Position numbers and translations under genes: made by a program. From Mytilus galloprovincialis (lineage: Eukaryota; Mollusca; Bivalvia; Mytilida; Mytilidae): a stretch of DNA of 64,000 nucleotides. The stretch covers positions 114,074,517 to 114,138,516 of the forward strand of contig NC_134839.1 of the NCBI RefSeq assembly GCF_965363235.1. The letters run 5' to 3'. Numbering within the stretch: the stretch's first letter is position 1; every line of letters begins with the position of its first letter. Below are positions 19,061 through 63,500 of this stretch, one piece after another. The notes below the pieces were generated by a model. The model ran no database searches and had not been told where the DNA came from. It saw only the letters and a program-made list of their open reading frames with translations.

Positions 19061-19234
19061 AGGTGTTTAAATGGTTAACAATATAGAAAAAGAAATATGT
19101 ATCATAAGTTGTTTAACAATTATATATGAATTATTTCATTTCAGATGAAATTTTTCGTAACAGTTTGTAGACACCACAGTTATTACATGTGAATTTATTC
19201 GTGTCAATTGTGCTTGTATCAGCGTGTCAATATA

Positions 19235-22183
19235 ATGGTGCTTGTAATGAACACAACTACAGTATTAAACAGAACCAATCTTACTGTCATTTATGATTAT
19301 TATGGACCAGCTCTTACAAGTTTTTTCGCTGTTTGGTTGATTATCATAATTTTATGTTCTATAATAGGAAACATTCTTGTGATGTTAGTGATTCTGTTGG
19401 ATAGCAAAATGCGCCACGTGCACAACCATATCAATTTGTTTTTGTTTAATCTTGCATTGTCTGATGTTATGACTGGGTTGTTTGACGCTCCAGTGTCTCT
19501 CTACACACTCACACAAGAACATTGGGATTTGGGAGATTTTCTATGCAATGCGAATCTTTTTCTAAACGCAACATTTTTGTTCACATCCGTGCATAGTTTG
19601 ATGTACATTAGTATCCATAAATACATATCCATTAGGCGTCTATCTGATTGTAATACAACTCCAGTTGGTAAATGCGCATGTTATACCATGATTTTAGCGT
19701 CGTGGGGATGGGGTATTCTCTTTGCTCTCCTCACTACTTTTTACCTAAGCGCAGCAGAATACAAAGCTAAAACTATACAGTGTGGGCCAAAGTACCCAAT
19801 TTTTAATATAAAATCATTTGCACTATCTTTTGGAAATTTAATGTTGAACTTTGTGATACCTCTCATTATTATGGTAATTATGTATTCGAGGATATACTTT
19901 GTAATAAAGGATGATGCAGTATTTCGACGCAAGTCAACAACACAACAAAAAGATATTAGGAGCCGTTCTGATACAAAGGTTGTAAATGAAAAAGCTGTAA
20001 TTCATACCTTAGTAATCGTTTTAAGTTGTTTTATTATATGTTGGCTTCCATACATGTTCTACACAAATTTCATATTTTTCACAATTGACAGAAAGACAAT
20101 TCCAGCTTTCTTGAATCCTTTGGTAAGTAAAACTAATGCACTATGTGTTCTGGAAATTTTAGCAATATCAATTTATAAAAGGGGGTTGACAACCCAACGC
20201 AAAGGCAGATTCAACGTATTTCCATGGGAGAATCATTTCTCTTTATGATCCGAATGGTTTATCGAGTCGTGAAACTCGACATGTGCTAAGTATTTTGAAT
20301 TTTTGGAAATATGTAGTCCATAAAACAAAAGCTAATAAAACTAGTCATGTTCCTGGGAACAGACAATTCACATTTCCTTATGTAGAAAATAGTGAATTTA
20401 ATTTGATGTTATGGTTAGCTTATCTTGTTTTTTGTTTGACAGTCGCATACAGATCCATTATATTGACAACAGAGTGTGGTGAACAAAACAAATTTATTAC
20501 ATTTCTAGTACCGTTTTGATATTTTCGACCTTCAAACACTTATGTTGTAACTGCATAAGGCAACATTGAAGTTTGGTGATTGTTCTGTTGCTACCATGAT
20601 TTTAAATATTTTATAATTGATCGATATGCTAAATGATTGAACGAAAAATTTGATAGATTGATTGATTGATTGGCTGGTCGTTGGTGATTTAAAGGCGCGT
20701 TGCACACAGCGACTGTATCGCGTTGAGATCACAGTTTCGATATAACACAATTTAGACATGAGAAAAGTTGGCAAAATATCCATAACAATGATTAAACCGT
20801 TGATAAAAACAAGTCCATAACTATACTGTATAATATCAATATATCATTTATAGTGTTAACTGTGTAAGAAAAAAACTCATTATAGACGCCATTTTGTCTT
20901 AGCTGCAGTAAGTTTAAGATTTATGAATGATGGAAATTATATTTCAGGCTTATTGCTTTGGGTTTTCCAGCAGTGCTTGTAATCCAGTCATATATGCATT
21001 CAGGTTTCCAGATTTCAAGAACGGCTACTTGCAAATCCTGCGGAAGCTTTCTTGTCGAAAATCAAAAAGTAAGCTGTTTAATTAAAGTGTTTTAAAGTCA
21101 TCAATTGATGAATATGACAAACGTTTGAATGTTGAATGCTGTTCCTCAATTTTTGATACTATTACCTATTATGTCTGTTTTGTTTTGTTCACACATCGTT
21201 GTCAATTTAATGCAGTTTAATGCGACCGTCATCAAAGAGAGAGGTTTAGCTAGCTATAAAATCAGGTTTAGTCCATCATTTCCTACAGTAGAAAATATCT
21301 GTACCAAGTCAAGAATATGACAGTTGTTTTCTATTCGTTTGATGTGTTTGATCTTTCAGTTTTACATTTGCTTATGGACGTTCCGTTTATAAATTTCCTC
21401 GGAGTTCGGTATTTATGTTTTTTACTTTTATATTTATATTAGTTAGGACTACGTTAAGTGTATAAAGTCTTTGTTTAGAGTACCGTATATTAAATGTGCA
21501 TTACAATTTGATAAAAAAAAATAATATGAAAGAACATAACATACTTAGCCATTCGGGGTTTATGACAAAGTCAATGTCAACAGACAGTTATGACTGTAAT
21601 GATAGAAGATGATTACCATTCTATTCTTTTGAATAATAATGCAGCCGCTCTTTCTAGCAAACTTGCTGCAACAGTATTGAAGTTGAAAGTATTTGTCGAA
21701 ATTCGTCAAAGTGAGAAAAAGTTCTCGTATATTTACTCCTTGGTTTTCATTGTCAATGTATCAACTGTTATGCTTAAATGTCCTATGAAATGTTGGGTAA
21801 TATATTGATACTCAAGAATGAGAGGTTGACATTAGAAAAAACTTAAGTATTTGATTTTGTCATATACCCTAGTTTTAAGTTTTATATTTTTAGATTACAT
21901 GGATAAAAATTTAACTGCGCTTTGAAAAAAAGATTATTGAATGACATTACATAATGAATTCCTCTAAAAGAGAAATTATAGAAAGTTGTAAAACTTGTTG
22001 TCAACTAAACGTTTGCATTAAATGTTTAAATTGTTATAAAATGGCTTTTCAGTCTGAATAAATGAATATACTTTTTTTCAAGAATCCGTTTCGTATCATA
22101 AAAATGATCATGATGAAACAATAGAACAGATAGATCTTGAAGAATGGAATGAAGACGAGCATCACCATGACAATGTTAAATGA
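19235..22183 (+). CDS. Rhodopsin-class GPCR, amine-receptor-like but atypical (copy 1)
   Basis: Exons 19235-20122, 20948-21068 and 22083-22183 join in frame (GTAAGT, GTAAGC donors; TTTCAG, TTCAAG acceptors) to give 369 residues. Three N-glycosylation motifs (NTT, NRT, NLT) precede TM1 (GNILVM). TM2 has NLALSD; Cys104 and Cys183 can form the usual TM3-ECL2 disulfide; TM4 has SWGWG; TM6 has CWLP (269-272); TM7 has NPVIY (308-312), encoded by exon 2. The DRY motif at the end of TM3 is HKY (128-130), and the amine-binding Asp3.32 position is Asn111. The short tail is acidic and His-rich. The ligand is unknown and an aminergic ligand is doubtful. ATG at 19235 is chosen because copy 2 starts at the same place. 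An acceptor at 19143-19144 suggests a 5' untranslated exon from 19145; AATAAA is at 22336. Confidence 0.88.
20640..20675 (+). repeat. TTGA microsatellite in intron 1 of GPCR copy 1
   Basis: GATTGATTGATTGATTGGC. A longer run lies at the matching intron position of copy 2 (30738-30765), with TTTTAAATATTTTATAATTG-like sequence before both, showing that the introns are homologous. Confidence 0.8.
21125..21440 (+). repeat. Short dispersed repeat inside intron 2 of GPCR copy 1
   Basis: Begins with TTTTTGATACTATTACCTAT, passes through AGAGGTTTAGCTAGCTATAA and ends near TTTTACTTTTATATTTATAT. The equivalent intron of copy 2 lacks it, but the inverted pseudogene piece at 24690-25056 has it, so it marks the copy 1 lineage. 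Confidence 0.75.
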
Positions 22184-29090: not shown

Positions 29091-29118
29091 TATATGATTG
29101 CAACAGTCTGATGACAAA

Positions 29119-30734
29119 ATGATGATGGTAATGAATACAACAACATTATTAAATAGAACAAATTTGACTGACAAAGATGATTACTATGGTCCAGCTCTTA
29201 CATGTTTTTTCGCTATTTGGTTGATCCTGATAATGTTATGCTCCATTATAGGAAATATTCTTGTTATGTCAGTGATTCTGTTTAATAGAAAATTATGCAA
29301 CGTACACAGCAGCACAAATTTGTTCTTGTTTAGTCTCGCAATATCTGACGTAATGACCGGATTATTTATTGCTCCTGTGTCTCTATACACACTTATACAA
29401 GAACATTGGGATTTGGGAGATTTTTTATGCAATGTGAATCTTTTTCTAAACGCAACATTTTTGTTCACATCGGTCCACAGTTTGATGTACATAAGCATCC
29501 ATAAATACTTATCTGTTAAGCGTTTATCCGAATGTAATATAATTCCAGTTAGTAAATCTGCATGTTATACGATGATTTTAGCGTCGTGGGGATGGGGAAT
29601 TTCCTTTGCTCTCCTCACTACTTTGTACCTGAGCGGGGGCGAATACAAAGCTAAAACTATACAGTGTGGACCAAAGTATCCGATTTTTAATATTAAGTCA
29701 GTTGTACTATCTTTAGGAAATTTAATGTTGAATTTCATGATGCCTCTTATTATCATGATAATTATGTATTCGAGGATATACTCTATAATAAAGGATGATG
29801 CGGTGTTTCGACGCAATTCAACAAAGCAACAAAAAGATAATAAGAGCCGTTCGGATTCAAAGGTTGTAAATGAAAAGGCTGTTATTCATACCTTAGTAAT
29901 CATTTTAAGTTGTTTTATTATATGCTGGCTTCCATACATGATCTACACAAACTTCATATTTTTCACAATTGACAGAAAGACAATTCCAGCTTTTATGAAT
30001 CCTTTGGTAAGTAAAATTAATATTGACCTTTGCCATACCTGATCATATCTATAAAATGTATCAAAGACATGAGTTTATCACATACCTATAAAGGATCCCG
30101 TAGTTTCATTTTCGATCCGAATAATATCTGAGTTTGCCATGGAAAGACATGGACTGTTGAATGAAAATGTCAAAATCAGCACGTAGCGTACTATTAATTT
30201 ATTGAATTATGTTATATTGGTGAAACAAAGTTACAGTATATGATATAAATTTGGGAAATGGAAACGAAGAATGTGTCAAAGAGATAACAATCCGACCAAA
30301 GAGCAGAACAAAACTGTTCTGCCAAAGACGTCGGACGATATCCGTCATCAAGTACCAAACTTCAAAACCAGAGGATAAAAACCAAAAAAAACCCCAGTAT
30401 AATTCCTTTTCAATCAAATACTATTTGACCTCGTGAGTATAACAAGCCAGGAGAAATTGTCACTTTTTCTCTGTTTTTCTCACATCCACTTTAATATGTC
30501 GTAGCTGTTAACTGTTGATGGACTGAGCTGCTGTTTTTGATTATGGTTGCTTTTAATGGACTATCAGTATACACTGTTTGTATGGTTATTTAAAGTGACC
30601 TCGTGTTGGTGACACATAGTGATTAAAAGTTGTCACTTTAAAGATCTTGTGTTGTTAAACTAATGTTGCAACGACATTAGTAAAAGTTGTCGATTGATAA
30701 TTTTTCTGTTGCTTTAATGATCTTAAATATTTTA

Positions 30735-37272: not shown

Positions 37273-40200
37273 TCATTCAGTGTCTGAATCTGGATCATTG
37301 TAACTTGCAAAATACACTAATGGGTCCTTCGTTTTTGTGTGCCAAACAAGTAACTAATTGAAAATAAAAAAATAAAAAAAAACATAGAAGAGCATAGACA
37401 TTACAGTGTTGTTAATTTGTTACATTGCTATAAAGTATTTACACCATACACATTTTGTTATAAAAAATGCTCCTAGTTTTAAGATGATGTTGAATCTACT
37501 TTATATGTATTCCATGCCACGGAACGCCATCTTGACTTAGTGGGATAGAAACCTTTAATTTTGAAATAATGTTTGCGTAAGACAGACTGAAAATGATTAA
37601 TCTGCCCCACAACATATAGAATAAAATTGTGTGTCAATTTAAAAGAAATAGTGTAACTATGAAACAATTGAAAATGACCCCCCCCCCTAAGAATCAACTG
37701 ATCCACATCTAACATGATTCTATAAAATAATCAAGGATATATATAGTCCAGTCACCCATTCCTCGTTTATTAATTCAGTGTATTAGAATGAGACCTATCC
37801 CCGATTTTTAATTTCCATGATCAACACGACGGGTGATACTAGTTGAACAGGAATCGATTATATGTCTGGAGCATCTAAGTTCAAACCGGTTTATTATGGC
37901 TACATGTTGCTCAAGTCTAAGTTTTCTGTGTAAGGTTATGAGGACAACCCCTTGGATATAAGCTTTTTATGGCGTTGTTTTTCGATTAATGAGTATCAAT
38001 GGTATATTTAAAAAAATATATCAATGAATACAAAATATCTTGTATATTGATTAATCTAGTAAATTCTAATCATACCTTCGTACATCCATTGGCCTTTGGC
38101 TCCAGGTCATTTAATGTGCAACAAATTTCAAGAAATGATGTCTCTTGGTAACCTTCTTGAAATGATTTCCAAAAGTACAAATCATCATTGAAATAAAAGG
38201 TCTTGGTATTTAATGCGAATCCAGCCATGTCTATTGGAAACTTTCGCTGTTTCGTATTCCATGCATCAAATTTTATCACCTGAAATTATATTGCATACAT
38301 ACATTATAAGCTCATTTTTCTTTTCCTTTTTTAATGCAAGATGGTGGTGTAGGTTCATGCGCATGAGTATAGACATTTTTTTCAAAATATAAAAAAATAA
38401 AGCACATCGAACTAAAATAGATAAAAGCTATTACAATTTTCAACTATATGCTGACGGCATAATCTAGCAAACCTATAGGCACGAACTTCTCTCAAGAAAA
38501 GAGCAACTCAGTATCAGAATGACTGTTGGTAGCACGTGTTTTTCATGCTCTGGTCAGACGGTTCTTCCACGCTAAAGAAGGACTGAATACACATAGCACA
38601 TTGAACATTACGAGCAGTCTCATAATAAACTCATCATAGATATCAGGATTGATTTATTTTTTTACGTCAGACACGCGTTTCGTCTACAAAGGACTGATCA
38701 GTGACGCTAGAATCCAAAACAGTTAATAAGGCCAAAGAAAAAGGTACGAAGATGAAGAGCATTGAGGACCAAAGTTCCTAAAAGTTTTGCCAAATACAGC
38801 TTATATTATCTATTCCTGAGGTAGAAAAGCCTTATTATTTTTAAAATTAAAACTGTTTGCAAACAGTTTATTTATAAATATGACCATATCAATGATAATT
38901 CATGTCAGCACAAAAATGCTGACTACTGGGCTGGAGATACCCTTGAGAATTTAAACTCCACCAGCAGTGGCATCGATCCAGTTGTATCAATTAAACTCAT
39001 CGTAGATATCAGGATTAATTCTTTTATTTATGTCAGACCCGCATTTCGTCTACAAAAGACTGATCAGTGACGCTCGAATCCAAAAAAGTTAATCAGGCCC
39101 AAAAACAGGTACGAAGATGAAGAGCATTGAGGACCAAAAATTCCTAAAAGTTTTGCCAAATACAGCTTATATTATCTATTCCGGAGGTAGAAAAGCCTTA
39201 TTTTAAAAAAAAACTTTTTGTAAACCGTTTATTTATAAATATGACCATATCAATGATAATTGGGGAATTAAAACTCCACCAGCAGTGGCGTCAACCCAGT
39301 TGTTGCAAATAAACTCATCATAGATATCAGGATTAAATTTTGTATTAACGTCACACGCGCATTTAGTTTACAAAAGACTCATCAGTGACGCACGAATCCA
39401 AAAAGGTTTATAAGGCAAAAAAACAGTACGAAGATGAAGGACATTGAGGACCAAAATTCCTAAAAGTTTTGCCAAATATAGCTAATGTTATCTATTCCTG
39501 ATGTAGAAAAGCATAATATCATTACATACAGTTACATATTTAAATACTAAAAGAGGCATGAAAGATACCAGAGGGACAGTCAAACTCATAAATCGAAAAT
39601 AAACTGACAACGCCTGGCTAAAATGAAAGAAGACAAACAATAGAACACATGACACAACATAAAAAATAAAAGAATTAGCAACACGAACCCCACCAAAAAC
39701 TAGGGGTAGTCTCAGGTGCTCCGGAAGGGTAAGTAGATCCTGCTCCACATGTGACACACTAGGTGTTGCTTATGTTATAACAAATCCGGTAAATAGTCCA
39801 ATTCGGTAGGTCACATTCAGGAAAGGGAAGAAAATTCTAGCGACGACGTTAGGAACATATCCGATATCATTTGTTAAATGTTTATTCCATAACGGTCCAC
39901 CAACTCGTGATGGCGTCAATTTCACCATTTGGAACTCTTGGTTTAATAGCTTCCTTGTGAGCAGCAACCCTCTATCAAGAAAATCGTGATAGGAAATGCA
40001 AGCACGGGAATATCGTATCAATTGGTAGAAATATACCCCGTATGCAGGTGCTGCTGAAATGTTGCTCCTTAGAAATGGAAAGTTCACAATTGCTAAACTT
40101 TTTTTGAATCAGATGCCAATTAAGATTTGGTATATAGACAAGTGTTCTAAATCTCTGGTCAGCATGTTCTATACCAGGACGATAAACACAATCATCCTTA

Positions 40201-43200
40201 TTATCAACAACAAAATCAGGAGAATGTAATATCATCATGAATGTAATCAACATCATACTATTACCAAGCTTACAGTACAACATTGGATAAACTTGACAAC
40301 TAGTAAACATGGGAAAAACAACAATTACTCATCTGTGTGTATTAGATAAAAACATGTCACCAGCAAGCAGAAAACCGATTACAGTATAACAAAATCAAAT
40401 GTGAAACAAAACATCACATTATTATTACTTATTCTAGGAGGCGATATAGAACTAAACACTGGATCTAGAGTTGAACAACAAAGCGTATACCCATGTGGAC
40501 TATATGACCATCTAGTAACATGGACGTGCAATGCTTTTTTGTGTGATTAATGTGACATATGGCATCATATATCATGTAGTTGACTATGAACTCCTTCAAA
40601 GATCAAACATACAACGACTTTGTTGCAAACTCGGGAGAATAAAAGATACCAGAGGAAATCAAAAACAAACGGACAACGCCATTAATAAAAAGGAAAATGA
40701 CCAACTGATAAACAAAAGTATATAAACACAACATAGAAAAATAAAGACGACTTAGTAACACGAATCCCACCAAAAACTGTCATCTTTACATTTCACAACT
40801 ACGAACTGAACACATCAAATTACTACCAACCACTCACACATGAAATCTTATTCGAATCTGTGTCATCAAGCATTATTATTTCGCCATCTAAAGACAAGCA
40901 GTCCAAGACTCAAACCACAATCCTGAGCGAAAACAGTTCCAAAAATTAGAGTAATAGAAGTAGAACGCAAAGTAATAGTATATTTAACTTGAATGAAAAA
41001 AAGAAACTGAGAGTACAAACTGTCAATTGCTAAAACATAAAAGAAAACCCCTCAAACTGACATTGCAATCCTGTATTTTCTCAAAGCTTTTGACATTGTA
41101 CCGCAAAACAACTTACTTTCAAAAAATTGCGATGGAGGCAGTAGAAGGGGGAGAACAGTCTGAACAAGTAAAATTGGACTCATGGGTTCCACAAGGAACA
41201 GTCCTTGGATCATTACTCTTTTTGTCACATAAATGACCTCCAAGACACTGTCCAATCATCTGTACGGCTGTTCTCCGATTACTGATAACTGTACAGAACC
41301 TTCAAAACAGAGAAAGACCACAAACTACTGAAAGAAGAAATAGTAAAACTAGAACTTCAAGATTGGGCAAATAAATGGGGTATGCGATTTAACGCTTACA
41401 AAATTCTACACCATAGGCATCAAAAACAAAAGCCATAGATTTTTTACACCCAACTGCCCCATAAGTCCAGAACAACCAATACCTAGCAGTGCCGGTACCG
41501 AGAAAATCTGAAGTGGAGCACGCATTTACAAATGTTGCAAACAGAGCATAATTAACCATAGTCTTCCTCAGAAGTAACTACGGTACTGTTAACATGAATG
41601 TAAGACAACTGCTTACATTTTTCTAGTACGGTCAACTATGGGATATTTAGCAAAAGTATGGGACCCCTACAGTGAAGCTGATTCGAACAAGCTGGAAAAA
41701 ATACAGTGGCAAGCAGCACGCTTCATAACCGGCAACAACAAACCATGAGAAGATGACTGCGTAAAACATGCTATAAACCAAATTAGAACTCCAAGCATAA
41801 TGCACAAGCCAAAAACTTATATGTTTGTGCCAGGTGGTTGAGGGGGTGATTCCTGCTATTGATCAAGACGATTTCTTATAATCATGGAGACCAAGACGAA
41901 CCAGCACAGCAAAAAAGTTTGACATTTACCAGAAAACATAATTGAAAAACAAGTGAGAAATAACACTAGGTGCTTAGGCATTCCCACCAGTAAAACACAG
42001 CAACATTCAAATTCATTCTAGTGTCCACAATAAATAACAGAACCACCGAGAAGACACAATTAAGCGCGCAACATGTGTAGAGACCTTTAATCTGCTCTCA
42101 CGAAACGTGAACAAATCGACGGCGCCATCTCCCCGTTGTATAAAAGTCAGTATTTATAACTACAACGTACCCATACAGATACAGATGATGCCATATTTGG
42201 GATTATTAAACACACAAACACATATACAAACGTATAAACACGTACATGGATAATCCAAGAACTGCTCAATAAGCGATATCCCGATGTAATGTTTACCAAA
42301 TTTTGTTGTTAATTTCTGTGTCATTTGGTCTCTTGTAGAGAGTTGTCTCGTTGGCAATCACATCACACTTTACTTTGTTATTGTTCTCGAATCATCGTGT
42401 GCGTGTCTGCATAAATCATTATCTTACTTATTCCATAAAACAAACCTTTCCATTTTCGAGGATTGGTGTCTGATATTTCTTTTCAGAAACAAATCCCACC
42501 GGCCATACTGAAATCTTTTTTGTGTATCTCATCTAAAAAAAAACCTGTTTTGAAATATGTAGAGATAATATCAATGAGAAAACTTTTCATCAGAGATCAA
42601 CTCATGTCACAGTTAGGAACTATACTTCAAGATATGGCCTTCATTTATGAGGAAACTAATATCGTATAACAAACTATAGTAGGCCCCGACATGACAAATA
42701 GAAAACATTTCAAACGAATTTATGTAAACAATAAAAAAAAAAACCAAAAATGATATATATTGGGACTGGCAAATACCAAATATATCGAGGTTACATGTTT
42801 CCACGGATCGTATCTCAATTGGCGAATTACATCACCATAAAAAAAAACCACTTTATACGTTTTCTACAGATACAAGTGGACCAAAGTAAAAAAAAAAAGG
42901 GGGAAATTAACATCAAAGAATGAAAAAATGTCCGTGTTGTTTTTTTTTCTTTTGAAAAAGGAATTAAAATCTAGGGGAGAAGAGTATGGTTTATATATGA
43001 TTTATTCAAATTAAGTTCCATTGGATACATTTTTGGCAGCATATTGAATGGCCATGATTGAATAAAAACATTATAATATTCTTAAACAATACAGCCATAA
43101 AGACATGTGTAATTAACAATTCCTAAATTTGTGAGTTTTCAAACAATATAACTGACATTTTGCTTTTGTGATTATGCCAATGGTCAGTAACCTACTCTTT

Positions 43201-46200
43201 TGTGAGTATACCAATAATCAGTAAATTACTTCTTTGTAAGTATGCCAATAGTCAGTAACTTACTTCTGTGAGTATGCCAATAATCAGTAGCTGACTTCTT
43301 TGTGAGTATGCCAATAGTCAGTAACTTATTTCTTTGTCAGTATGCCAATAGTCAGTTACTTACTTCTTTTCAGTATGCCAATGGCCAGTAACTTACTTCT
43401 TTGTCAGTATGCCAATAGTCAGTAACTTACTTCTTTGTGAGTATGTCAATAGTCAGTAACTTACTTCTTTGTGAGTATGTCAATAGTCAGTTACTTCCTT
43501 CATTGTGAGTATGCCAATAGTCAGTAACTTACTTGTTTGTGAGTATGCCAATAGTCAGTAGCTTACTTGTTTGTGAGCCGTATGCCAATAGTCAGTAACT
43601 TATTTCTTTGTCAGTATGCCAATAGTCAGTAACTTACTTCTTTTCAGTATGCCAATGGTCAGTAACTTACTTCTTTGTCAGTATGCCAATAGTCAGTAAC
43701 TTACTTCTTTGTGAGTATGTCAATAGTCAGTTACTTCCTTCATTGTGAGTATGCCAATAGTCAGTAACTTACTTGTTTGTGAGTATGCCAATAGTCAGTA
43801 ACTTACTTGTTTGTGAGTATGCCAATAGTCAGTTACTTACTTCTCTGAGTATGCCAATAGTCAGTAACTTTCTTCATTGTGAGTATGCCAATAGTCAGTA
43901 ACTTATTTCTTTGTCAGTATGCCAATAGTCAGTTACTTACTTCTTTTCAGTATGCCAATGGTCAGTAACTTACTTCTCTGAGTATGCCAATAGTCAGAAA
44001 CTTTCTTCATTGTGAGTATGCCAATAGTCAGTAATTTACTTCTTTGTGAGTATGCCAATAGTCAGAAGCTTACTTCTTTGTGAGTATGCCAATAGTCAGT
44101 TACTTTCTTCATTGTGAGTATGCCAATAGTCAGTAACTTACTTCTTTGTGAGTATGTCAATAGTCAGTTACTTACTTCTATGAGTATGCCAATAGTCAGT
44201 AACTTTCTTCATTGTAAGTACGCCAATAGTCAGTAACTGACTTCTTTGTGAGTATGCCAATATTCAGTAACTTACTTCTTTGAGTATGCCAATAGTCAGT
44301 TACTTACTTCTCTGAGTATGCCAATAGTCAGTAACTTTCTTCATTGTGAGTATGCCAATAGTCAGTAACTTATTTCTTTGTCAGTATGCCAATAGTCAGT
44401 TACTTACTTCTTTTCAGTATGCCAATGGTCAGTAACTTACTTCTCTGAGTATGCCAATAGTCAGAAACTTTCTTCATTGTGAGTATGCCAATAGTCAGTA
44501 ATTTACTTCTTTGTGAGTATGCCAATAGTCAGAAGCTTACTTCTTTGTGAGTATGCCAATAGTCAGTTACTTTCTTCATTGTGAGTATGCCAATAGTCAG
44601 TAACTTACTTCTTTGTGAGTATGTCAATAGTCAGTTACTTACTTCTATGAGTATGCCAATAGTCAGTAACTTTCTTCATTGTAAGTACGCCAATAGTCAG
44701 TAACTGACTTCTTTGTGAGTATGCCAATATTCAGTAACTTACTTCTTTGAGTATGCCAATAGTCAGTACCTTTCTTCCTTGTGAGTATGTCAAAAGTCAG
44801 TAACTTACATCTTTGTCAGTATGCCAATAGTCAGTAACTTACATCTTTGTCAGTATGCCAATAGTCGGTAACTTACTTCTTTGTGAGTATGCCAATAGTC
44901 AGTAACTTACTGCTTTGAGTATGCCAATAGCCAGTACCTTTCTTCCTTGTGAGTATGCCAATAGTCAGTACATTTCTTCTTTTTTAGTATGCCAATAGTC
45001 AGCAACTTACTTACTTGTAAGTATGGCAATAGTCGGTAGCTTACTTCTGTGAGTATGCCAATAGTCAGTAGCTTACTTCTGTGAGTATGTCAATTGTCAG
45101 TAACTTACTTCTGTGAGTATGCAAATAGTCAAAAACTTACTTCTTTGTCAGTATGGCAATAGTCGGTAACTTACTTCTGTGAGTATGCCAATTGTCAGTA
45201 ACTTACTTTTGTGAGTATGCCAATAGTCAGCAACTTACTTCTTTGTAAGTATGGCAATGGTCGGTCACTTACTTCTGTTAGTATACCAATAGTCAGTAGC
45301 TTACTTATGTGAGTATGCCAATTGTCAGTAACTAACGTCTGTGAGTATGCCAATAGTCAGCAACTTACTTAATTGTAAGTATGGCAAAGTGGGTAACTCA
45401 CTTCTTTGTGAGTAACTTACCTCTATAAAGATTTCCAAATCATATGTATTATCATCATCCGCGAAGTAAACCACGCCATCTTTAGACATATCGATATTTT
45501 CCCGCAACCAAAATATTGCCTTATTCCTTTGATGTATTCCTTTGAGAGTTCTTGGTACGTTTTTATATCGAGTAGCAGAAAGATATGTAAACTGAATGTC
45601 TATTTTCATTAACAGGTGTCTAACTGCCTCTAAGGTTCTTTTTCCTTCTTCTACTACGATCCAATGAACTGCTGGTACGTTCCTCAAGGTGTTCCCGAGT
45701 CTTGTCAGTTCAGGAATTTGAGTCAATCGTTTGTATGTCGGAGTAATTACATAAATTATTGGTAAATGTTGATTTTGCTCTTCTCTTTTTGTACAGGATA
45801 TTCGTCCTCCATTGTCGTAATGTAAAACATCTGTCAACAAGAAAAATCCCATATATTAAAAGATGATGAAATGGTGACACGATGATGATGAACTCTACAA
45901 AGACATGTGAGATAGCATCCAGGGACATGCAATCTTCAACAGTAAAGATTATCGATTAAATATGTGTTAATCTTAAGAAGAAAAGCAGATTAGAACTTAA
46001 TTTAACAACAAATGGAATATAATATAAACCAACCGATTCAGAAATGTGATAGATCGAACAGTACTCCACATCGACGTAACCCAGTGCATGGAACTATCGA
46101 ACAGTACTCCACACTGACTAAACCATGTGCATGGAACTATCGAACAGTACTCCACACTGACAAAACCATGTGCATGGAACTATCGAACAATACTCCACAC

Positions 46201-49200
46201 TGACAAAACCATGTGCATGGAACTATCGAACAGTACTCCACACTGACAAAACCATCGACATGGAACTATCGAACAGTACTCCACACTGACAAAACCATGT
46301 GCATGGAACTATCGAACAGTACTCTATACTGACAAAACTACGTGCATGAAACTATCAAACAGTATCCACACTGACAAAACCACGTGCATGGAACTATCGA
46401 ACAGTACTCCACACTGACAAAACCACGTGCATGGAACTATCGAACAGTACTCCACATTGAGAAAACCACGTGCATGGAACTATCGAACAGTACTCCACAC
46501 TGACAAAACTACGTGCATGTGTAAAGCAAAATATTGTCCTATGAAATAATGTCCCACAAGACAATATTTCATAACTATGCATCATGAAATATTGTCATCG
46601 TCTATGGAAAAATGTCCAGAGAAGGACAAATTTTCATAGTGAAATTTTGTCTGTATGTAGACCATATTTCACAGATGAATACTATGGAATTTTGTCTTGT
46701 TAAAGGGAGGTTATATTTTGTGTGAATTGAGACAATATTTCACAAATTAATACTATGAAATTTTGTCCTGTTAAAGGGAGATTATATTTTGGTTATATTT
46801 TGTGAGTTTTAAGACAATATTTTATCGACAGATTGTCATGGAATTTTGTCTTATTAAAGGGGTGGGTATCAACATATATTCATGTTAGATATTGATATTT
46901 TGTTTGACTTATAATAACACATTAGCGCAAATTAATATTCCAGTACATTACTTATATTTGTACAGTATACTGTAATGCAATGAAACCTACGTTAGACAAT
47001 TCTTTAATCTATAAGTAACCATTTGTAATGTATCTATGCAAATTTGAATCTTACTATAAGTAATAACATACGATCCTTACTATACAAAATCATTTCAGTT
47101 ATAAATCTACAAATTTATGTACATTCTGCGTGCTTATGTACTACTTCTAATTGTGTAATAAATCGATTAAAAAATAATTTTAAAGCCAGTATTTCATAGT
47201 GAAGTATTGTCATCAACAGAATTTCATATACAAGGACAGAATTTCTAATGAAAAATGTCAAGGACAATATTTCATTATGAAATACTGTCATTGGACAATA
47301 TTTCATAGGAAATTTTGTCCGACGTACAATATTTCATTGGGGACAATGTTTAATGTTACACATGGAACTATCGAACAGTACTCCACACTGACAAAACCAC
47401 GTACATGGAACTATCGAACAGTACTCCACACTGACAAAACCATGTGCATGAAACTATCGAACAGTACTCCACACTGACAAAACCATGTGCATGGAACTGT
47501 CACCGGGGAAACTGGGTGACTTGTGAGGTCGTGCAACAAGACCTTGACTGAATGGCCACTTGTTACTGAAACTGTGTGATGCACCTGATCACACAACGAA
47601 CGATTGCTGTGAATAGCAATGAGAACTCTGGAACTGAAACTCTGGTGAAACCTAACTTTTGAGACTCTGGAACTAGCGATGAATAAACCAATAATTCAGC
47701 ATGGAATACTATTACTTTTATTACAGATGGACTGTGTTCAGGGTAAAGTTCTGAGTCCGAATCTTGCTTATTGAAATTATAAGCAAGTATTTATACACAA
47801 TTGAAATGACAAGAATAGACATAACAAATAACAATTAATTTGAGTGATATTGTTCACTGACAAAGATTAAACTATTTTTAGAACTTGAAGAATAAATATT
47901 AAATGATAATCTGATTATGACAATTAAGAACATACATTATGAATAAGGTAAAATGTCACTAATTAGGTAACAGATTGAACATGTCACTCAATGTCCAAAC
48001 TAAGAATTAAAAAGCATGTTGATTGTTTTAAGTCCTGGATACGAAATGTAAATAGAAACGAAATTATAAAATAAAATGAATTATAAAACACAGAGAATTA
48101 AAGTCTAAAATATCACAATTGAGAATTTTGTATTAAAGTCCAAAATAATAAACGAAGCTGCTTTTTCCACTGTCACAGAACTATCGAACAGTAATTCCAC
48201 TGACAAAACCACGTGCTTGGAACTATCGAACAGTATTCCACACTGACAAAACCACGTGCATGGAACTATCGAACAGTACTCCACAACGACAAAACCCAGT
48301 GCATGGAATTATCAAACAGTCATCCACATTGACAAAACCAAGTGCATGGAATTATCATTGCTGTTGTTTTTTTTTAAATTATTATTTTTTTTTTTTTTTG
48401 CTTCGTGTAAATTAAATGAGTCAAGTAATTTTACCTAAATCTTTAGTTTGTTCTTATGTTGTGCTGTCGCACGTCAGGTCATGGTTTAACGCTGATAAAT
48501 ATGTGTGTCCCCTCTTCATTCTGTGTGTGTCTGTCCCAGGTCAGGGTTTAGCGCTCAAAAATATGTGTAACCCCTCCACATTCTGCTTGTCCAAAGCCAG
48601 GAGTCTGTAATTAAGTGGTTGTTGTTGGTGGCTGTGTGTCATCTTTGTTTTTATTTTATTGTTTTGCCATACATCGGGCCGCTAGTTTTCTCGTTTGAAA
48701 CGTTTTTTTCTTTCTTTTTGTCATGTCTTGGCCATTTCATAATTAACTGACTATACGGCATGTGTTTTGCTTATTGCTGTATGCCGTACGGTGACATATT
48801 TTTGCTTATTGCTGAATGCCGTACGGTGACATATTTTTGCTCTCTTCCACGTTTATGGATTCTGGTGAAAGTTGCCTCATTGGAAATTATAACGCCTAGG
48901 TGGCAGGATCTCGCAATAGTCGACAAACTAATATGTACTGATTGTACTATAACTTTATAGATAACATACAAGTAATTCCTATTAATAAAGAAGTGCACCA
49001 ACATACGATTGTTTCTTTATCAATTACTTTCTTGTCGTCTTATAATTCCAAAATTCAGGTTCAGAAAAGAATGTTGATTTTAGAAGTGTTTGGCTCTTCA
49101 GAGGTGTACATCCTCAATAGCGGCGCGGAAAAGCAACACATATATCTCGTCTCCCGCGTCTTTTATCGTAGGCGAGACAAAAATTATAAAGCGGTTGCTT

Positions 49201-57500: not shown

Positions 57501-60500
57501 AGAAGGATTTTTATCGAGCACTACTTCCTATGTGCAACTTCAAAACTTTTGGGTGATTCGACGACCATTTAAGGTTTTTATGGTAATATTTTTTATATTA
57601 CAGAATAAAAAGTATGAAAAAAGTGTCCAATTAGTTATAAATAACATGACAGCCAGCCAGATAATAAAAGTGGCACATATTTCAGCATTTATTGGGTAGA
57701 ACAGAAATCTAGAGTGCTCGCATAAAGCAGCTTAACTGCTTAAAAACGATAACTTTAAATGGATCGTATCTAAATTTGCGGGCTACATCACCATACAAAT
57801 GTGCATGTGATATCCCACTGTTAATAAGTGTTCTACAAATACAACCTAACTTCCGAACTTAATCTGTGTACAAATGAAACTTTTATCTAATGTTTAAGTA
57901 CATTGTGGTAACAAAAATTGCTGACTTAATTATTTACCATTGGTATATAGATGATGTTATTTGAAATCTACAACCTCACTACATACACGGCCCTAGCGAA
58001 CGAGTTGGGATAAATAATCATGATAAGATGGAACCAAGGTAACATCACCGTAAAAACAAAGAAAAAATAGCATAATTGCATTTAGATTCCCTTTCGAAAC
58101 TGAAATATTTAAATATAAAAAAGAACAGTTATTACTGTTAATAATTATAATTATGATTTATTATTTATTTAAAGTAAATTCCTTTGGATACATTTCGACA
58201 GTATATTGTACGGCCATGATTGAACAATAAATTATAATATTCCTAACCAATGTGTCTCTACTGCCAAAAAAACATACATGTATTTAAATAACAATTCCTA
58301 TCATTGTTAGTTTACCAATCTAATTAAAATATTGATCTCTGATTTCGTTATACTACATATGAGTACGAAATCAGAGATCAATATTTTAAGTAGATTGTAG
58401 CTTTACGAAAAAATTGATCATGAACATTTTTTCCTTCTGTGATTATTCCAATAGTCGGCAACTTTCTTCTTTATGGTTATGCCAATAGTCAGTAAATGAA
58501 GGCAACAGTAGTATACTGCTATTCAAAAGTTATAAATGAATTGAGATTAAACAAATCCGAGTTACACATTAAAACAAAGGAAACACATCAACTTTAAGAA
58601 AACAACGGACCAACAGAAACAGTGCAACAAAAATAAACGCGAAAAACATAGAAACGGACTATTTGATAACAACTGCCATATTCCTAACTTGGTCACAGGT
58701 TAAGGACATTTTTAAGGGGAAAAAATATATGTTGAATCTGGTTTTATGGCTAGCCGAACCTCCTGCTTATACGGCAATGTTAAAATATATCGATGTGACA
58801 GGATTACAGTACAAACAAGCACATGAACAATCAGCACAGATGAGCGCAATGATACAACATGAAAACCGCAGACCAACAACGATCTTCTTCCATTAACAAC
58901 ACCACACCACACCATACCACAAGCAGTAACGTGTTTTTGTGACGTATATATAATCTTGAAATTCAAACACTTATATGAAACGAGATTTATAAACTCACAG
59001 GTTTGTCCCAGGTTAGGGGGAGGGTTGGGATCCCGCTAACATGTTTAACCCCGCCACATTATTTATGTATGTGCCTGTCCCAAGTCAGAAGCCTGTAATT
59101 CAGTGGTTGTCGTTTTTTTTTTTGTTTTTTTTTTTTTTTTACATAAATAAGGCCGTTAGTTTTCTCGTTTTAATTGTTTTACATTGTCTTATCGGGCCTT
59201 TTATAGCTGACTATGCGGTATGGGCTTTGCTCATTGTTGAAGGCCGTACGGCAATCTATAGTTGTTAATGTCTGTGTCATTTTGGTCTTTGTGGATAGTT
59301 TTCTCATGGCAATCATACCACATCTTCTTTTTTTATATTTACAATTAATTTCACAATAATATTCCAAAAAATCATGATTATGACGGTCTTGACGGCTATT
59401 TTGAATTAATGCTGTGACGACGACATATTTATTTGGGCTAATACAAAACTTAATCCACGGAAAATGAAAATAAACTCGACTATACTGACAAATAAAACAT
59501 ATGTGAAATGTACTGGAAATACAGAATTCAAACCACGAGAGATTATTAATGATTAACACAATATACAACCGAACCCACTACTGAAACATAACTAAATACA
59601 TAAATGTTGGATGTACAATACCGCGATACGTGTCGTATAGCAATGCAAATTCACACTCGACAAAACAGTTATGATACTGGAATAGGTCATGTTCGGTACT
59701 AAGCAGAACGACGACACAGATGTTAAACCACATACTCACTTACATGTACTTCTTTGTGAGTATGCAAATAGTCAGTAACTTATTTACACTCGGAGTATGC
59801 CATTAATCAGAATCAGTAACTTACTTCTGTGAAGATTTCCAAATCATATGTGTTATCATCGTCCGCGAAGTAAACCACGCCATCTTTAGATATATCGATA
59901 TTGTTCCGCAACCAAAATATTGCCTTATTCCTTTGATGAATTCCTTTGAGAGTGTTTGGTACGTGTTTATATCGTGTGGCAGAAAGGTATGTAAACTGTA
60001 TGTCTATCTTCATTAACAGGTGTCTGACTTCCTCTAAGGTTTGGTTTCCTTCTTCTACTACGACCCAATGAACAGCTGGTACGTTCCTCAACGTGTTCCC
60101 GAGTCTTGTCAGTTCGGGAATTTGAGTCAATCGTTTGTATGTCGGAGTTATCACATAGATTATTGGTAAATGTTGATTTTGTTCTACTCTTTTTGTACAT
60201 GACATTTGTCCTCCGTAATATAAAACACCTGCCAACGAGAAATAACTCATACCAGTTTATTAAATTGATGACACTACAAGGAAATGTGAAATCGCGACAA
60301 AAATTACCAAGAGATAATTATGGGCATCAAGCAGTCTTCCAAAATAGAGAGTGTTAATGTAAAGAAGAAAGAAAGTATTGAATGTATTAAACATCAACTG
60401 AAATATAAACCAATCGAAGTAGAATATTAAACATCAACTGAAATATAAATCAATCGAAGTAGAATATTAAACATCAACTGAAATATAAACCAATCGAAGT

Positions 60501-63500
60501 AGAGTATTGAATGTATTAAACATCAACTGAAATATAAATCAATCGAAGTAGAGTATTGAATGTATTAAACATCAACTGAAATATAAACCAATCGAAGTAG
60601 AGTATTGAATGTATTAAACATCAACTGAAATATAAATCAATCGAAGTAGAGTATTGAATGTATTAAACATCAACTGAAATATAAACCAATCGAAGTAGAG
60701 TATTTAATGTATTAAACATCAACTGAAATATAAATCAATTGAAGTAGAGTATTGAATGTATTAAACATCAACTGAAATATAAACCAATCGAAGTAGAGTA
60801 TTGAATGTATTAAACATCAACTGAAATATAAACCAATCGAAGTAGAATATTGAATGTATTAAACATCAACTGAAATATAAACCAATCGAAGTAGAGTATT
60901 GAATGTATTAAACATCAACTGAAATATAAACCAATCGAAGTAGAGTATTGAATGTATTAAACATCAACTGAAATATAAACCAATCGAAGTAGAGTATTGA
61001 ATGTATTAAACATCAACTGAAATATAAACCAATCGAAGTAGAGTATTGAATGTATTAAACATCAACTGAAATATAAACCAATCGAAGTAGAGTATTGAAT
61101 GTATTAAACATCAACTGAAATATAAACCAATCGAAGTAGAATATTGAATGTATTAAACATCAACTGAAATATAAACCAATCGAAGTAGAATATTGAATGT
61201 ATTAAACATCAACTGAAATATAAACCAATCGAAGTAGAGTATTGAATGTATTAAACATCAACTGAAATATAAACCAATCGAAGTAGAGTATTGAATGTAT
61301 TAAACATCAACTGAAATATAAACCAATCGAAGTAGAATATTGAATGTATTAAACATCAACTGAAATATAAACCAATCGAAGTAGAATATTGAATGTATTA
61401 AACATCAACTGAAATATAAACCAATCGAAGTAGAATATTGAATGTATTAAACATCAACTGAAATATAAACCAATCGAAGTAGAGTATTGAATGTATTAAA
61501 CATCAACTGAAATATAAACCAATCGAAGTAGAATATTGAATGTATTAAACATCAACTGAAATATAAACCAATCGAAGTAGAATATTGAATGTATTAAACA
61601 TCAACTGAAATATAAACCAATCGAAGTAGAATATTGAATGTATTAAACATCAACTGAAATATAAACCAATCGAAGTAGAATATTGAATGTATTAAACATC
61701 AACTGAAATATAAATCAATCGAAGTAGAATATTGAATGTATTAAACATCAACTGAAATATAAACCAATCGAAGTAGAATATTGAATGTATTAAACATCAA
61801 CTGAAATATAAACCAATCGAAGTAGAATATTGAATGTATTAAACATCAACTGAAATATAAACCAATCGAAGTAGAGTATTGAATGTATTAAACATCAACT
61901 GAAATATAAACCAATCGAAGTAGAATATTGAATGTATTAAACATCAACTGAAATATAAACCAATCGAAGTAGAGTATTGAATGTATTAAACATCAACTGA
62001 AATATAAACCAATCGAAGTAGAATATTGAATGTATTAAACATCAACTGAAAAATATTGAATGTATTAAACATCAACTGAAATATAAACCAATCGAAGTAG
62101 AGTATTGAATGTATTAAACATCAACTGAAATATAAACCAATCGAAGTAGAGTATTGAATGTATTAAACATCAACTGAAATATAAACCAATCGAAGTAGAG
62201 TATTGAATGTATTAAACATCAACTGAAATATAAACCAATCGAAGTAGAATATTGAATGTATTAAACATCAACTGAAATATAAACCAATCGAAGTAGAATA
62301 TTGAATGTATTAAACATCAACTGAAATATAAACCAATCGAAGTAGAATATTGAATGTATTAAACATCAACTGAAATATAAACCAATCGAAGTAGAGTATT
62401 GAATGTATTAAACATCAACTGAAATATAAACCAATCGAAGTAAAGTATTGAATGTATTAAACATCAACTGAAATATAAACCAATCGAAGTAGAGTATTGA
62501 ATGTATTAAACATCAACTGAAATATAAACCAATCGAAGTAGAGTATTGAATGTATTAAACATCAACTGAAATATAAACCAATGGAAGTAGAGTATTGAAT
62601 GTATTAAACATCAACTGAAATATAAACCAATGGAAGTAGAGTATTGAATGTATTAAACATCAACTGAAATATAAACCAATGGAAGTAGAGTATTGAATGT
62701 ATTAAACATCAACTGAAATATAAACCAATCGAAGTAGAGTATTGAATGTATTAAACATCAACTGAAATATAAACCAATCGAAGTAGAGTATTGAATGTAT
62801 TAAACATCAACTGAAATATAAACCAATCGAAGTAGAATATTGAATGTATTAAACATCAACTGAAATATAAACCAATCGAAGTAGAGTATTGAATGTATTA
62901 AACATCAACTGAAATATAAACCAATCGAAGTAGAATATTGAATGTATTAAACATCAACTGAAATATAAACCAATCGAAGTATTCCTGCTGATGATAATAA
63001 CTACAATAAAACTTTGACATCTATAAACTTAAAACTTGACAAAGCCAAGTACATTGAATTATTAAATCGTCATCCACATCGACGAGCCAAATAAAATTTA
63101 CAACTCTTCCGTACTTTCCCGTTTTCTAAGATATGAATTTTACCGTGAGTTCATTTTAGTTGACAGTTATTACCATGATTACCTATCGACTCTTAACACT
63201 ACATTGCAACACATTCTAATCAAACAGAAGTGTTCTTATTTAATTAAATGGACGTATCATAATCTTGATGATATTTGTATTTGCTTGACAAAAAAATATT
63301 CATACTATACTGTGGTGATATTCCTTTGACCCTATCTAATATTTCCGAACTCGTTCGTTAGATTCGTATCTGTACTAAAGGTTCATACTTCTTTGAACGT
63401 TAAACATCTGTGTGTATTATAAATTATATTAAATTAAGAAACTGCATTTTTTACGCAGGCCAGAAAAATATATAAAGCGGTTGCTCGTTTTATATTGGTC

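Follow-up and report, generated by a model that had tools for sequence, protein, structure and literature searches.

The window, by which we mean the whole 64,000-nucleotide stretch of Mytilus galloprovincialis DNA analysed here, contains two sister genes, copies A and B, both read on the minus strand. The host gene, with its match to Pfam PF03360 and an intact frame, is a GT43 glucuronosyltransferase, a family whose enzymes carry out glucuronosyl transfer. Both genes are open from exon 2 through the stop codon, exon 2 being where our statement about frame starts (exon 1 was not located). Since the frames are open over this span and the dN/dS ratio of A versus B is 0.18 (dN 0.054, dS 0.294; a value that pools the two branches and is silent on the period since the expansion in A described below), the protein has been under constraint. 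The features of the two copies are as follows, with a slash marking the exon end.

45421..45830, minus strand: exon 2 of copy A, first half of the GT43 domain, 410 nt; acceptor ...GACAG, donor ...GAG; Pfam PF03360, E 4.1e-27
45413..45423, minus strand: real donor of copy A, GAG/GTAAGTTA (-3 to +8); PWM 7.94, U1 duplex -10.7 kcal/mol
43157..45420, minus strand: minisatellite of 68 units, consensus GTAAGTTACTGACTATTGGCATACTCACAAAGAA on the transcribed strand; 78% of intron 2
45402..45420, minus strand: unit 1, GTAAGTTACT + CACAAAGAA, which includes the real donor; read from the sequence
44911..45401, minus strand: units 2-16, the donor-proximal, more diverged block (mean pairwise identity 79%)
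43230..44910, minus strand: units 17-66, the more homogeneous block (mean pairwise identity 88%)
43814..44767, minus strand: higher-order duplication, 44767-44281 and 44300-43814, 487 nt at 100% identity with a lag of 467 bp
43157..43195, minus strand: unit 68, the distal edge, with variant AATCAC in column 24 (1 of 67 units)
42446..42532, minus strand: exon 3 of copy A, from exon boundaries
38076..38279, minus strand: exon 4 of copy A, from exon boundaries
37273..37353, minus strand: coding part of exon 5 of copy A with the stop, from exon boundaries and frame
59825..60228, minus strand: exon 2 of copy B; donor GAA/GTAAGTTA; Pfam PF03360, E 2.4e-27
59733..59824, minus strand: copy B units 1, 2 and first part of unit 3, from sequence comparison
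58495..59732, minus strand: dispersed repeat of about 1.24 kb inserted in copy B unit 3, with many genome copies and a nested 340-bp repeat
58430..58494, minus strand: rest of copy B unit 3 and unit 4; distal end about 58430

The last letters of exon 2 in copy A are ...GAG, with 45421 as the final position, and intron 2 opens with GTAAGTTACTCAC at 45420, boundaries that agree with those given in an earlier note on this DNA. Wrap-around parsing of the transcribed strand gave 68 units of about 34 bp running from 45420 down to 43157 (a few nucleotides past unit 68 are forced by the procedure into a 69th row), and TRF reported a tandem repeat at 43165-45414 with period 34, 67.3 copies and 85% matches. 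The array thus fills most of an intron of 2,888 bp. Unit 1 is 19 nt long, with 15 internal nucleotides missing between two ACT repeats, a deletion taken from reading the sequence whereas the parser put the gap elsewhere. The perfect identity of the 487-nt stretch at a lag of 467 bp suggests that turnover of the array is recent. The earlier note had every unit reading as a donor, but GTAAGT is exact in only 35 of the 67 full units and GT itself is present in 50 of them; the lost-GT variants are common by descent to repeated blocks of the array. The branch-point motif TACTGAC is likewise abundant (46 occurrences versus 1.04 in shuffles); this abundance is real, yet it reflects one event copied many times, as do the donors, and shuffles overstate the significance of any motif of the unit because the independent question concerns one unit.

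Array unit 1 opens with the intron part of copy A's real donor, so that the tandem repeat sits at the exon-intron junction and begins at intron +1. The array is in phase with the donor, and the likeness to the unit extends past the hexamer. Specifically, none of 5000 shuffles and none of 5000 random window pieces was as similar to the unit as intron positions +7 to +26 of copy A, which indicates that the continuity of array and donor is not due to chance and bears out what the earlier note had reported, an array of about 68 units continuous with a real donor. The same held for positions +7..+75 of the copy B intron (0/5000 shuffles, 0/5000 window pieces as good). No above-chance similarity to the unit was found in the last 12 and 20 nt of exon 2 of either copy; for the last 12 nt, 5000/5000 shuffles and 4994/5000 window pieces did as well in copy A, and 1472/5000 and 732/5000 in copy B. 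A few nucleotides of the copy B unit (AGAA) could be exonic.

Copy B carries four units (59824-59733 and 58494 to about 58430), the third split by the 1.24-kb repeat, rather than the two or three counted previously. Its last unit shares with unit 68 of array A both the AATCAC variant and the sequence that follows. A second candidate for a common edge variant, ATTTACTGA (in unit 67 of A and before the last two units of B), was discarded, as the letters in copy B belong to the end of the dispersed repeat. The four-unit array and its far edge matching that of A fit the suggestion that copy B preserves the state before expansion, although a contraction in B may also account for them.

We also compared the unit with the intron start of copy C, a paralogue that has no array. 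The similarity is weak, with 25 to 61 per 1000 controls as good: for unit positions 7-34, 205/4000 shuffles and 101/4000 window pieces did as well under strict settings and 245/4000 and 181/4000 under lax ones, and a separate comparison with the unit gave 51/1000 shuffles and 174/2830 window pieces. Against the same intron start, the B intron was matched by 1831/4000 shuffles and 902/4000 window pieces (strict; 521 and 169, lax) and the A intron by 1552/4000 and 1154/4000 (strict; 2889 and 1955, lax). Homology of the unit to the copy C intron start is thus weak, and an ancestral state with a single copy is therefore not proven.

A search of the 1.38-Gb genome with a 28-mer core, allowing up to 3 mismatches, returned 62 matches, array A accounting for 61 and copy B for the remaining one, while the control gave 0; at this sensitivity no unit copies were found at unrelated loci. 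A separate genome search for the unit, which skips very common words, likewise gave no copy beyond the introns of A and B. That unit 1 is the intron start, and that the array is found only in the introns of sisters A and B, upholds the proposal that the array grew out of the start of the intron. Privateness as such was rejected as proof of birth at the donor: copy B has in its intron 1 a 49-bp array that is just as private (53/53 matches local). The exon 2 acceptor of copy B, considered as the seed of that array, resembles it no more than chance would give (556/1000 shuffles and 214/1000 window pieces did as well).

Donor strength was assessed with a general PWM, not trained on M. galloprovincialis, and with duplex energies for which the register was left free. 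In the M. galloprovincialis genome, the 5' end of U1 pairs with CAGGTAAGTAT. None of the 113 GT sites in array A reaches the real donor of copy A in PWM score (7.94) or U1 energy (-10.7 kcal/mol). Strong U1 pairing, as claimed earlier for the unit, holds for its intron hexamer alone; the unit has A at -1, and the modal decoy reaches -5.6 kcal/mol. G at -1 occurs in 0 of 50 unit-phase GT sites, and the five array GT sites that do have it score 0.25 or less on the PWM. The array units do carry splice signals, in that 32 of the 113 sites equal or exceed the real donor of copy B on the PWM, far above shuffled DNA (200 shuffles: mean 1.93, maximum 7), so that the score comparison proposed in the earlier note does not refute its reading. 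Compared with the donors of exons 3 and 4 in A, B and C, between 35 and 51 of the 113 score at least as high on the PWM, and eight (-7.2 kcal/mol) are stronger in U1 energy than the exon 2 donor of copy C (-6.9). Since several genuine donors in this gene family score lower than decoys do, and the donor 11-mer of copy B (GAA/GTAAGTTA) is present 16 times in array A, silence of the decoys is not guaranteed by score alone.

Taken together, these data lead us to favour, as the probable explanation, a passive minisatellite seeded at a splice donor, whose decoys are silent since the true donor outcompetes them. A piece of about 34 bases from the very start of intron 2, with the donor hexamer in it, would have been tandemly duplicated before the A/B gene duplication. 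Slippage or unequal exchange would then have brought copy A to 68 units, a recent duplication of a 467-bp block being one of the steps. Because the hexamer lay within the duplicated piece, every unit would have inherited a copy of the donor, and about half retain GTAAGT. Only the real donor combines the full hexamer with G at -1, which is predicted to strengthen its U1 pairing by about 5 kcal/mol relative to the modal decoy, and no other site adjoins a coding exon; the decoys are thus most likely silent in normal splicing. The order of seeding, the slippage mechanism and the silence in RNA are what we infer from sequence.

It is unlikely, in our estimate, that the array is instead a regulatory decoy field, in which some decoys bind U1 and are at times used, so that copy A transcripts yield frame-broken messages and array length acts as an expression dial. 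Such a role would draw on the 32 sites described above; as each of these sites would introduce a stop or disrupt the frame, using them would lower the output of copy A. Many usable unannotated donors occur in human introns (PMC10809524), and in C. elegans one minisatellite is enriched in the vicinity of alternative exons (PMC4039745), as far as the excerpted texts of these reports go. The real donor is, however, stronger than every array site, and exon 2 is the sole exon known before any decoy. Intact GTAAGT occurs in 35 of 67 units where 49.9 are predicted from columns 7-25 (29 versus 38.8 without units 35-48), as weak purging would give. Common descent can account for this shortfall, which is unproven as a sign of selection; purging of decoys also fits, in which case the decoys would not be neutral. 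The donor columns are neither specially kept nor lost: agreement over the hexamer is 0.908 versus 0.917 in the remaining columns of the unit (rank 15 of 34 circular windows), and we rejected selection preserving the decoys. None of the 48 array sites scoring 0 or more leaves a frame open through exon 3. A role in titrating or staggering splicing, raised in the earlier note, accordingly finds no support in the sequence (hexamer rank 15/34, 0/113 equal to the real donor, 0/48 open frames). Concealment of decoys by RNA folding was rejected as well, since the donor region (z -0.07; 87/200 shuffles fold as well) and 601 nt of the array (z +1.34; 19/20 shuffles) fold ordinarily.

About as doubtful is the reverse order of events, in which the minisatellite formed first, within the intron and next to the exon, and one of its units then took the place of the original donor through deletion or conversion between units and the exon end. 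In ending with GAA, exon 2 of copy B resembles the units, so that its junction is the unit-like GAA/GTAAGTTACTGA; the exon end is GAG in A, C, L012 (read as the reverse complement), L013 and L015, and CAG in L014. Against donor replacement, the last 12 nt of the exons of A and B are not significantly similar to the unit, GAG is retained in A, and unit 1 stands at the intron start in A and B alike.

Still less probable is that the 32 to 50 weak U1 sites in 2.25 kb serve as a landing strip that holds U1 snRNP on the nascent transcript, suppressing premature polyadenylation or retaining copy A RNA in the nucleus. The 2.25-kb array contains no poly(A) signals versus 6.4 expected from the rest of the window and 3.1 in shuffles; a paper on human satellite transcripts, in its excerpted text, holds nothing direct on U1 telescripting on arrays (PMC9909926). 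Were the landing strip real, its effect would be proportional to array length, making length a heritable, fast-changing dial on one gene copy. An ordinary dispersed satellite or transposon-borne repeat that landed beside the donor by chance is very improbable: minisatellites and dispersed repeats are plentiful in the genome and window, but no copy was found outside the two sister introns at the sensitivity of our search, and unit and donor are in phase, with similarity that continues past the hexamer.

The nearest known kind to a donor-seeded array is the 'mirage' minisatellite of amphioxus (PMC3087553), described for Adh3 and the globin genes BflGb6 and BflGb9, with TnC and PGBD5 also compared; the characteristics given here and below are those in the excerpted sources. 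In both cases a functional gene has tandem repeats at the border of an exon and an intron that multiply its splice signals, and the cluster interior is homogenised with the edges left out (PMC3087553; PMC3902484). Amphioxus Adh3 data and globin RT-PCR suggested that splice-site-bearing minisatellites leave regular splicing undisturbed (PMC3087553; PMC3902484). Mirage units cross the boundary and repeat exon sequence, whereas the unit of array A has no demonstrable exon sequence; two BflGb6 haplotypes carry 6 and 3 units of 150-160 bp and Adh3 has units of 10-72 bp, compared with 68 x 34 bp here; and the mirages lie in a lancelet, array A in a mollusc. In the UBC polyubiquitin array of dual-specific splice sites, signals are also repeated in register with a tandem repeat, but there the repeat is coding and the sites are used as both 5' and 3' sites, while array A is intronic and its decoys are putative (PMC10809524). 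Intron gain by tandem genomic duplication likewise copies a splice signal (PMC4974935), although array A is confined to one intron and no new exon or intron is evident. Internal tandem repeats of human segmental duplications also expand units of about 30 bp in recently duplicated genes; they average about 4 units and alter exon/intron structure, whereas array A has 68 and its adjoining exon is unchanged (PMC2812944). Lysozyme genes of M. galloprovincialis show tandem repeats within mussel introns too, which the excerpted source does not place at a splice donor, where array A lies (PMC3448621).

The array suggests that a splice donor is able to seed a large minisatellite with its gene intact, outside the amphioxus cases found in the literature searched. 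Copies A and B are a natural experiment in how a cell chooses one donor among dozens of near copies, and the set-up is clean: within -3 to +8 the donors of the sister genes differ at -1 alone, with 68 versus 4 units behind them.

The window and genome are rich in minisatellites and dispersed repeats. Among arrays of at least 4 copies with a period of 15 or more, surveyed in the window and 18 loci (137,044 bases; L011, L025 and L031 partly overlap, and in-window loci and four further U1-repeat loci were dropped), donor-like units recur in 1 of 14, and a single site of this kind is present in one other. Among 20 window arrays, a two-copy 57-bp repeat at 462-575 has one donor-like site in each unit, and two further arrays contain a single site.

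Copies A and B are sister genes on the minus strand whose products belong to glycosyltransferase family 43 (Pfam PF03360). In each, the reading frame stays open from exon 2 through to the stop (exon 1 was not located), and the two differ from each other by a dN of 0.054 and a dS of 0.294 (ratio 0.18). They lie on contig C2 of an assembly of 1.385 Gb in 331 contigs. A 770-aa open frame in this assembly contains the mussel foot protein 1 decapeptide many times over, which marks the genome as that of a mussel, Mytilus or close kin.

Exons of copies A and B (window positions)
45830-45421, minus, copy A exon 2
42532-42446, minus, copy A exon 3
38279-38076, minus, copy A exon 4
37353-37273, minus, copy A exon 5
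60228-59825, minus, copy B exon 2
56233-56147, minus, copy B exon 3
55579-55376, minus, copy B exon 4
54635-54555, minus, copy B exon 5

A minisatellite (array A) takes up 78% of the 2,888-bp intron 2 of copy A, with 68 units at 43157-45420 by unit parsing and 67.3 copies at 43165-45414 by TRF; unit lengths are mostly 34 (n = 42), 32 (n = 18) and 33 (n = 5). The earlier note rightly placed this array beside the real donor: in similarity tests that start at +7, so that the donor hexamer is excluded, none of 5000 shuffles or 5000 window pieces matches the unit as well as positions +7 to +26 of intron A do. Unit 1, as read from the sequence, is a unit that has lost 15 nt of its interior, between two ACT repeats. 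In intron B, positions +7 to +75 gave the same outcome (0 of 5000 in both controls); over +7 to +45, a match as good occurs in 12 of 5000 shuffles and 8 of 5000 window pieces. The ends of exon 2 show no likeness to the unit beyond chance when compared with shuffles and window pieces, so the repeat must begin no more than a few nt away from the first base of the intron. Growth from that point, as previously proposed, is the best reading of the sequence. Across the whole genome, a 28-nt unit core at ≤3 mismatches gave 62 matches, 61 in array A and one in copy B (its reversed control gave none), and a 68-nt search gave 37, 35 in A and two in B. Privateness alone is ordinary in this genome, because a 49-bp array in intron 1 of copy B is equally private to its locus (53 of 53 matches).

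Within array A, mean pairwise identity is 79% among the exon-adjoining units 2-16 versus 88% among units 17-66. A 487-nt stretch recurs with zero differences at a lag of 467 bp; the cause is a recent duplication of the block or, with lower probability, a duplication in the assembly.

The donor of copy B is followed by two units, a third into which a dispersed repeat (about 1.24 kb) has inserted, and a fourth. Parts of this repeat are at high copy in the genome among the matches listed, and B's copy looks 5'-truncated because two of the three copies compared (loci L034 and L035) reach further 5', in an extension that looks shared by eye. With the insertion ends known to about 2 nt, its removal in silico, with a 2-nt TA overlap fitted by hand, restores one whole unit (+3 nt inside, +6 before), so no whole units need have gone at insertion. 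Unit 4 of copy B and unit 68 of array A have in common both an A at column 24, a variant present in one unit of 67 in array A, and the sequence after it; the flanks beyond are alike (A 42993-43162 versus B 58156-58334, 73%). A second variant, at first counted as shared at this edge, was discarded on rechecking; the remaining edge evidence holds, and the weighing of the explanations is unaltered. Since both array edges match, the array is older than the A/B split. Copy B had been taken to preserve the state before expansion; its matching edges suit that view, but it has four units rather than two or three, and after the split either A may have expanded or B may have shrunk. We note that an inverted repeat (AATATTGATCTCTGATTTCGT ... 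ACGAAATCAGAGATCAATATT, each arm about 21 nt long) lies at 58328-58385, just past copy B's last unit; by eye we saw no counterpart in copy A, and it is perhaps a MITE-like insertion.

Donors were scored with a vertebrate-like matrix, which may not suit this species; on it the real donor of copy A scores 7.94 (U1 duplex -10.7 kcal/mol) and that of copy B 3.83 (-5.6), the 11-mer of the latter occurring 16 times in array A. None of the 113 array GT sites reaches the real donor of A by matrix or U1 energy. The comparison with shuffles proposed in the earlier note came out in favor of donor-likeness: 32 of the 113 sites reach the copy B donor score (mean of 200 shuffles 1.93, maximum 7), and sites at or above that level stand at 14.2 per kb in the array versus 0.6-0.7 in the rest of the window. 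By matrix, array sites also match or beat the donors of A exon 3 (43 sites), A exon 4 (35) and B exon 4 (51), which counts against simple silence; none reaches the exon 2 donor of copy C, the array-free paralogue. In U1 energy, the donors of exons 3 and 4 in all three copies (-5.7 to -7.9) at least equal the modal decoy (-5.6), but eight array sites reach -7.2. G at -1 is found at none of 50 unit-phase GT sites and at five of all 113, each scoring ≤0.25. U1 snRNA genes form tandem arrays of about 1.32-kb period at C8:46088275-46125869 and C134:732-21999, on two other contigs (42 scored out of 14,029 first-look candidates, all 42 with an identical bit score).

The suggestion that the decoy field titrates or staggers splicing found no support in the sequence. 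Consensus agreement is 0.908 in the donor columns versus 0.917 in columns 7-34 (0.952 in columns 7-25), ranking 15th of 34 circular windows; without the duplicated units 35-48 the values are 0.909 versus 0.914 and the rank is unchanged. GTAAGT is intact in 35 of 67 full units (GT in 50), fewer than the 49.9 that columns 7-25 predict. This shortfall may reflect shared descent, since donor-loss variants such as GAAAGT come back in repeated blocks; weak purging of decoys may also have lowered the count. Any decoy use would cost product, because none of 48 array sites scoring ≥0, nor any of the 32 stronger sites, leaves the frame open through exon 3. RNA folding of the donor and array region showed nothing out of the ordinary. 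AATAAA and ATTAAA signals are absent from the array (the window predicts 6.4, and 6 of 200 shuffles lack them too), which is what one signal-free sequence, repeated, would yield. The array is most likely passive, and would be tolerated because the real donor outranks every decoy in the field.

The original amphioxus Adh3 paper is reportedly that of Canestro et al. in 2002. Array A behaves on its intron side as do the amphioxus 'mirages', which excerpts of one paper (PMC3087553) describe as minisatellite-like duplications of intron-exon boundaries in Adh3 and globin genes, differing in length between haplotypes and leaving regular splicing undisturbed according to Adh3 data and globin RT-PCR; excerpts of a later one (PMC3902484) add TnC and PGBD5. 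Unlike mirages, array A shows no exon sequence within its unit beyond chance similarity, and because of this we file it as a variant of the mirage kind, not a member. No mollusc case was among the matches listed in full-text literature searches; the excerpted account of Mytilus lysozyme genes (PMC3448621) reports tandem repeats in introns, not at a donor.

The 49-bp array in intron 1 of copy B (about 50 units, 60465-62981) has units reading TTGGTTTATATTTCAG|TTGATG on the transcribed strand, each resembling a 3' splice site, with no similarity to the real acceptor of copy B. Upstream of copy A exon 2, one 43-bp unit occurs in three separate arrays (46053-46519, 47360-47498 and 48178-48356), separated, by eye, by ATTTCATAGTGAAAT-type sequence. 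Downstream of paralogue C, a 52-bp minisatellite of 31 copies (L031:8290-9900) carries one recurring segment of about 49 aa (IFIWYVSSHFYC...) in all three frames, since its period is not divisible by 3. Two similar open frames, presumably of GPCR type, stand in tandem on the plus strand of the window at 19193-20248 and 29098-30042.
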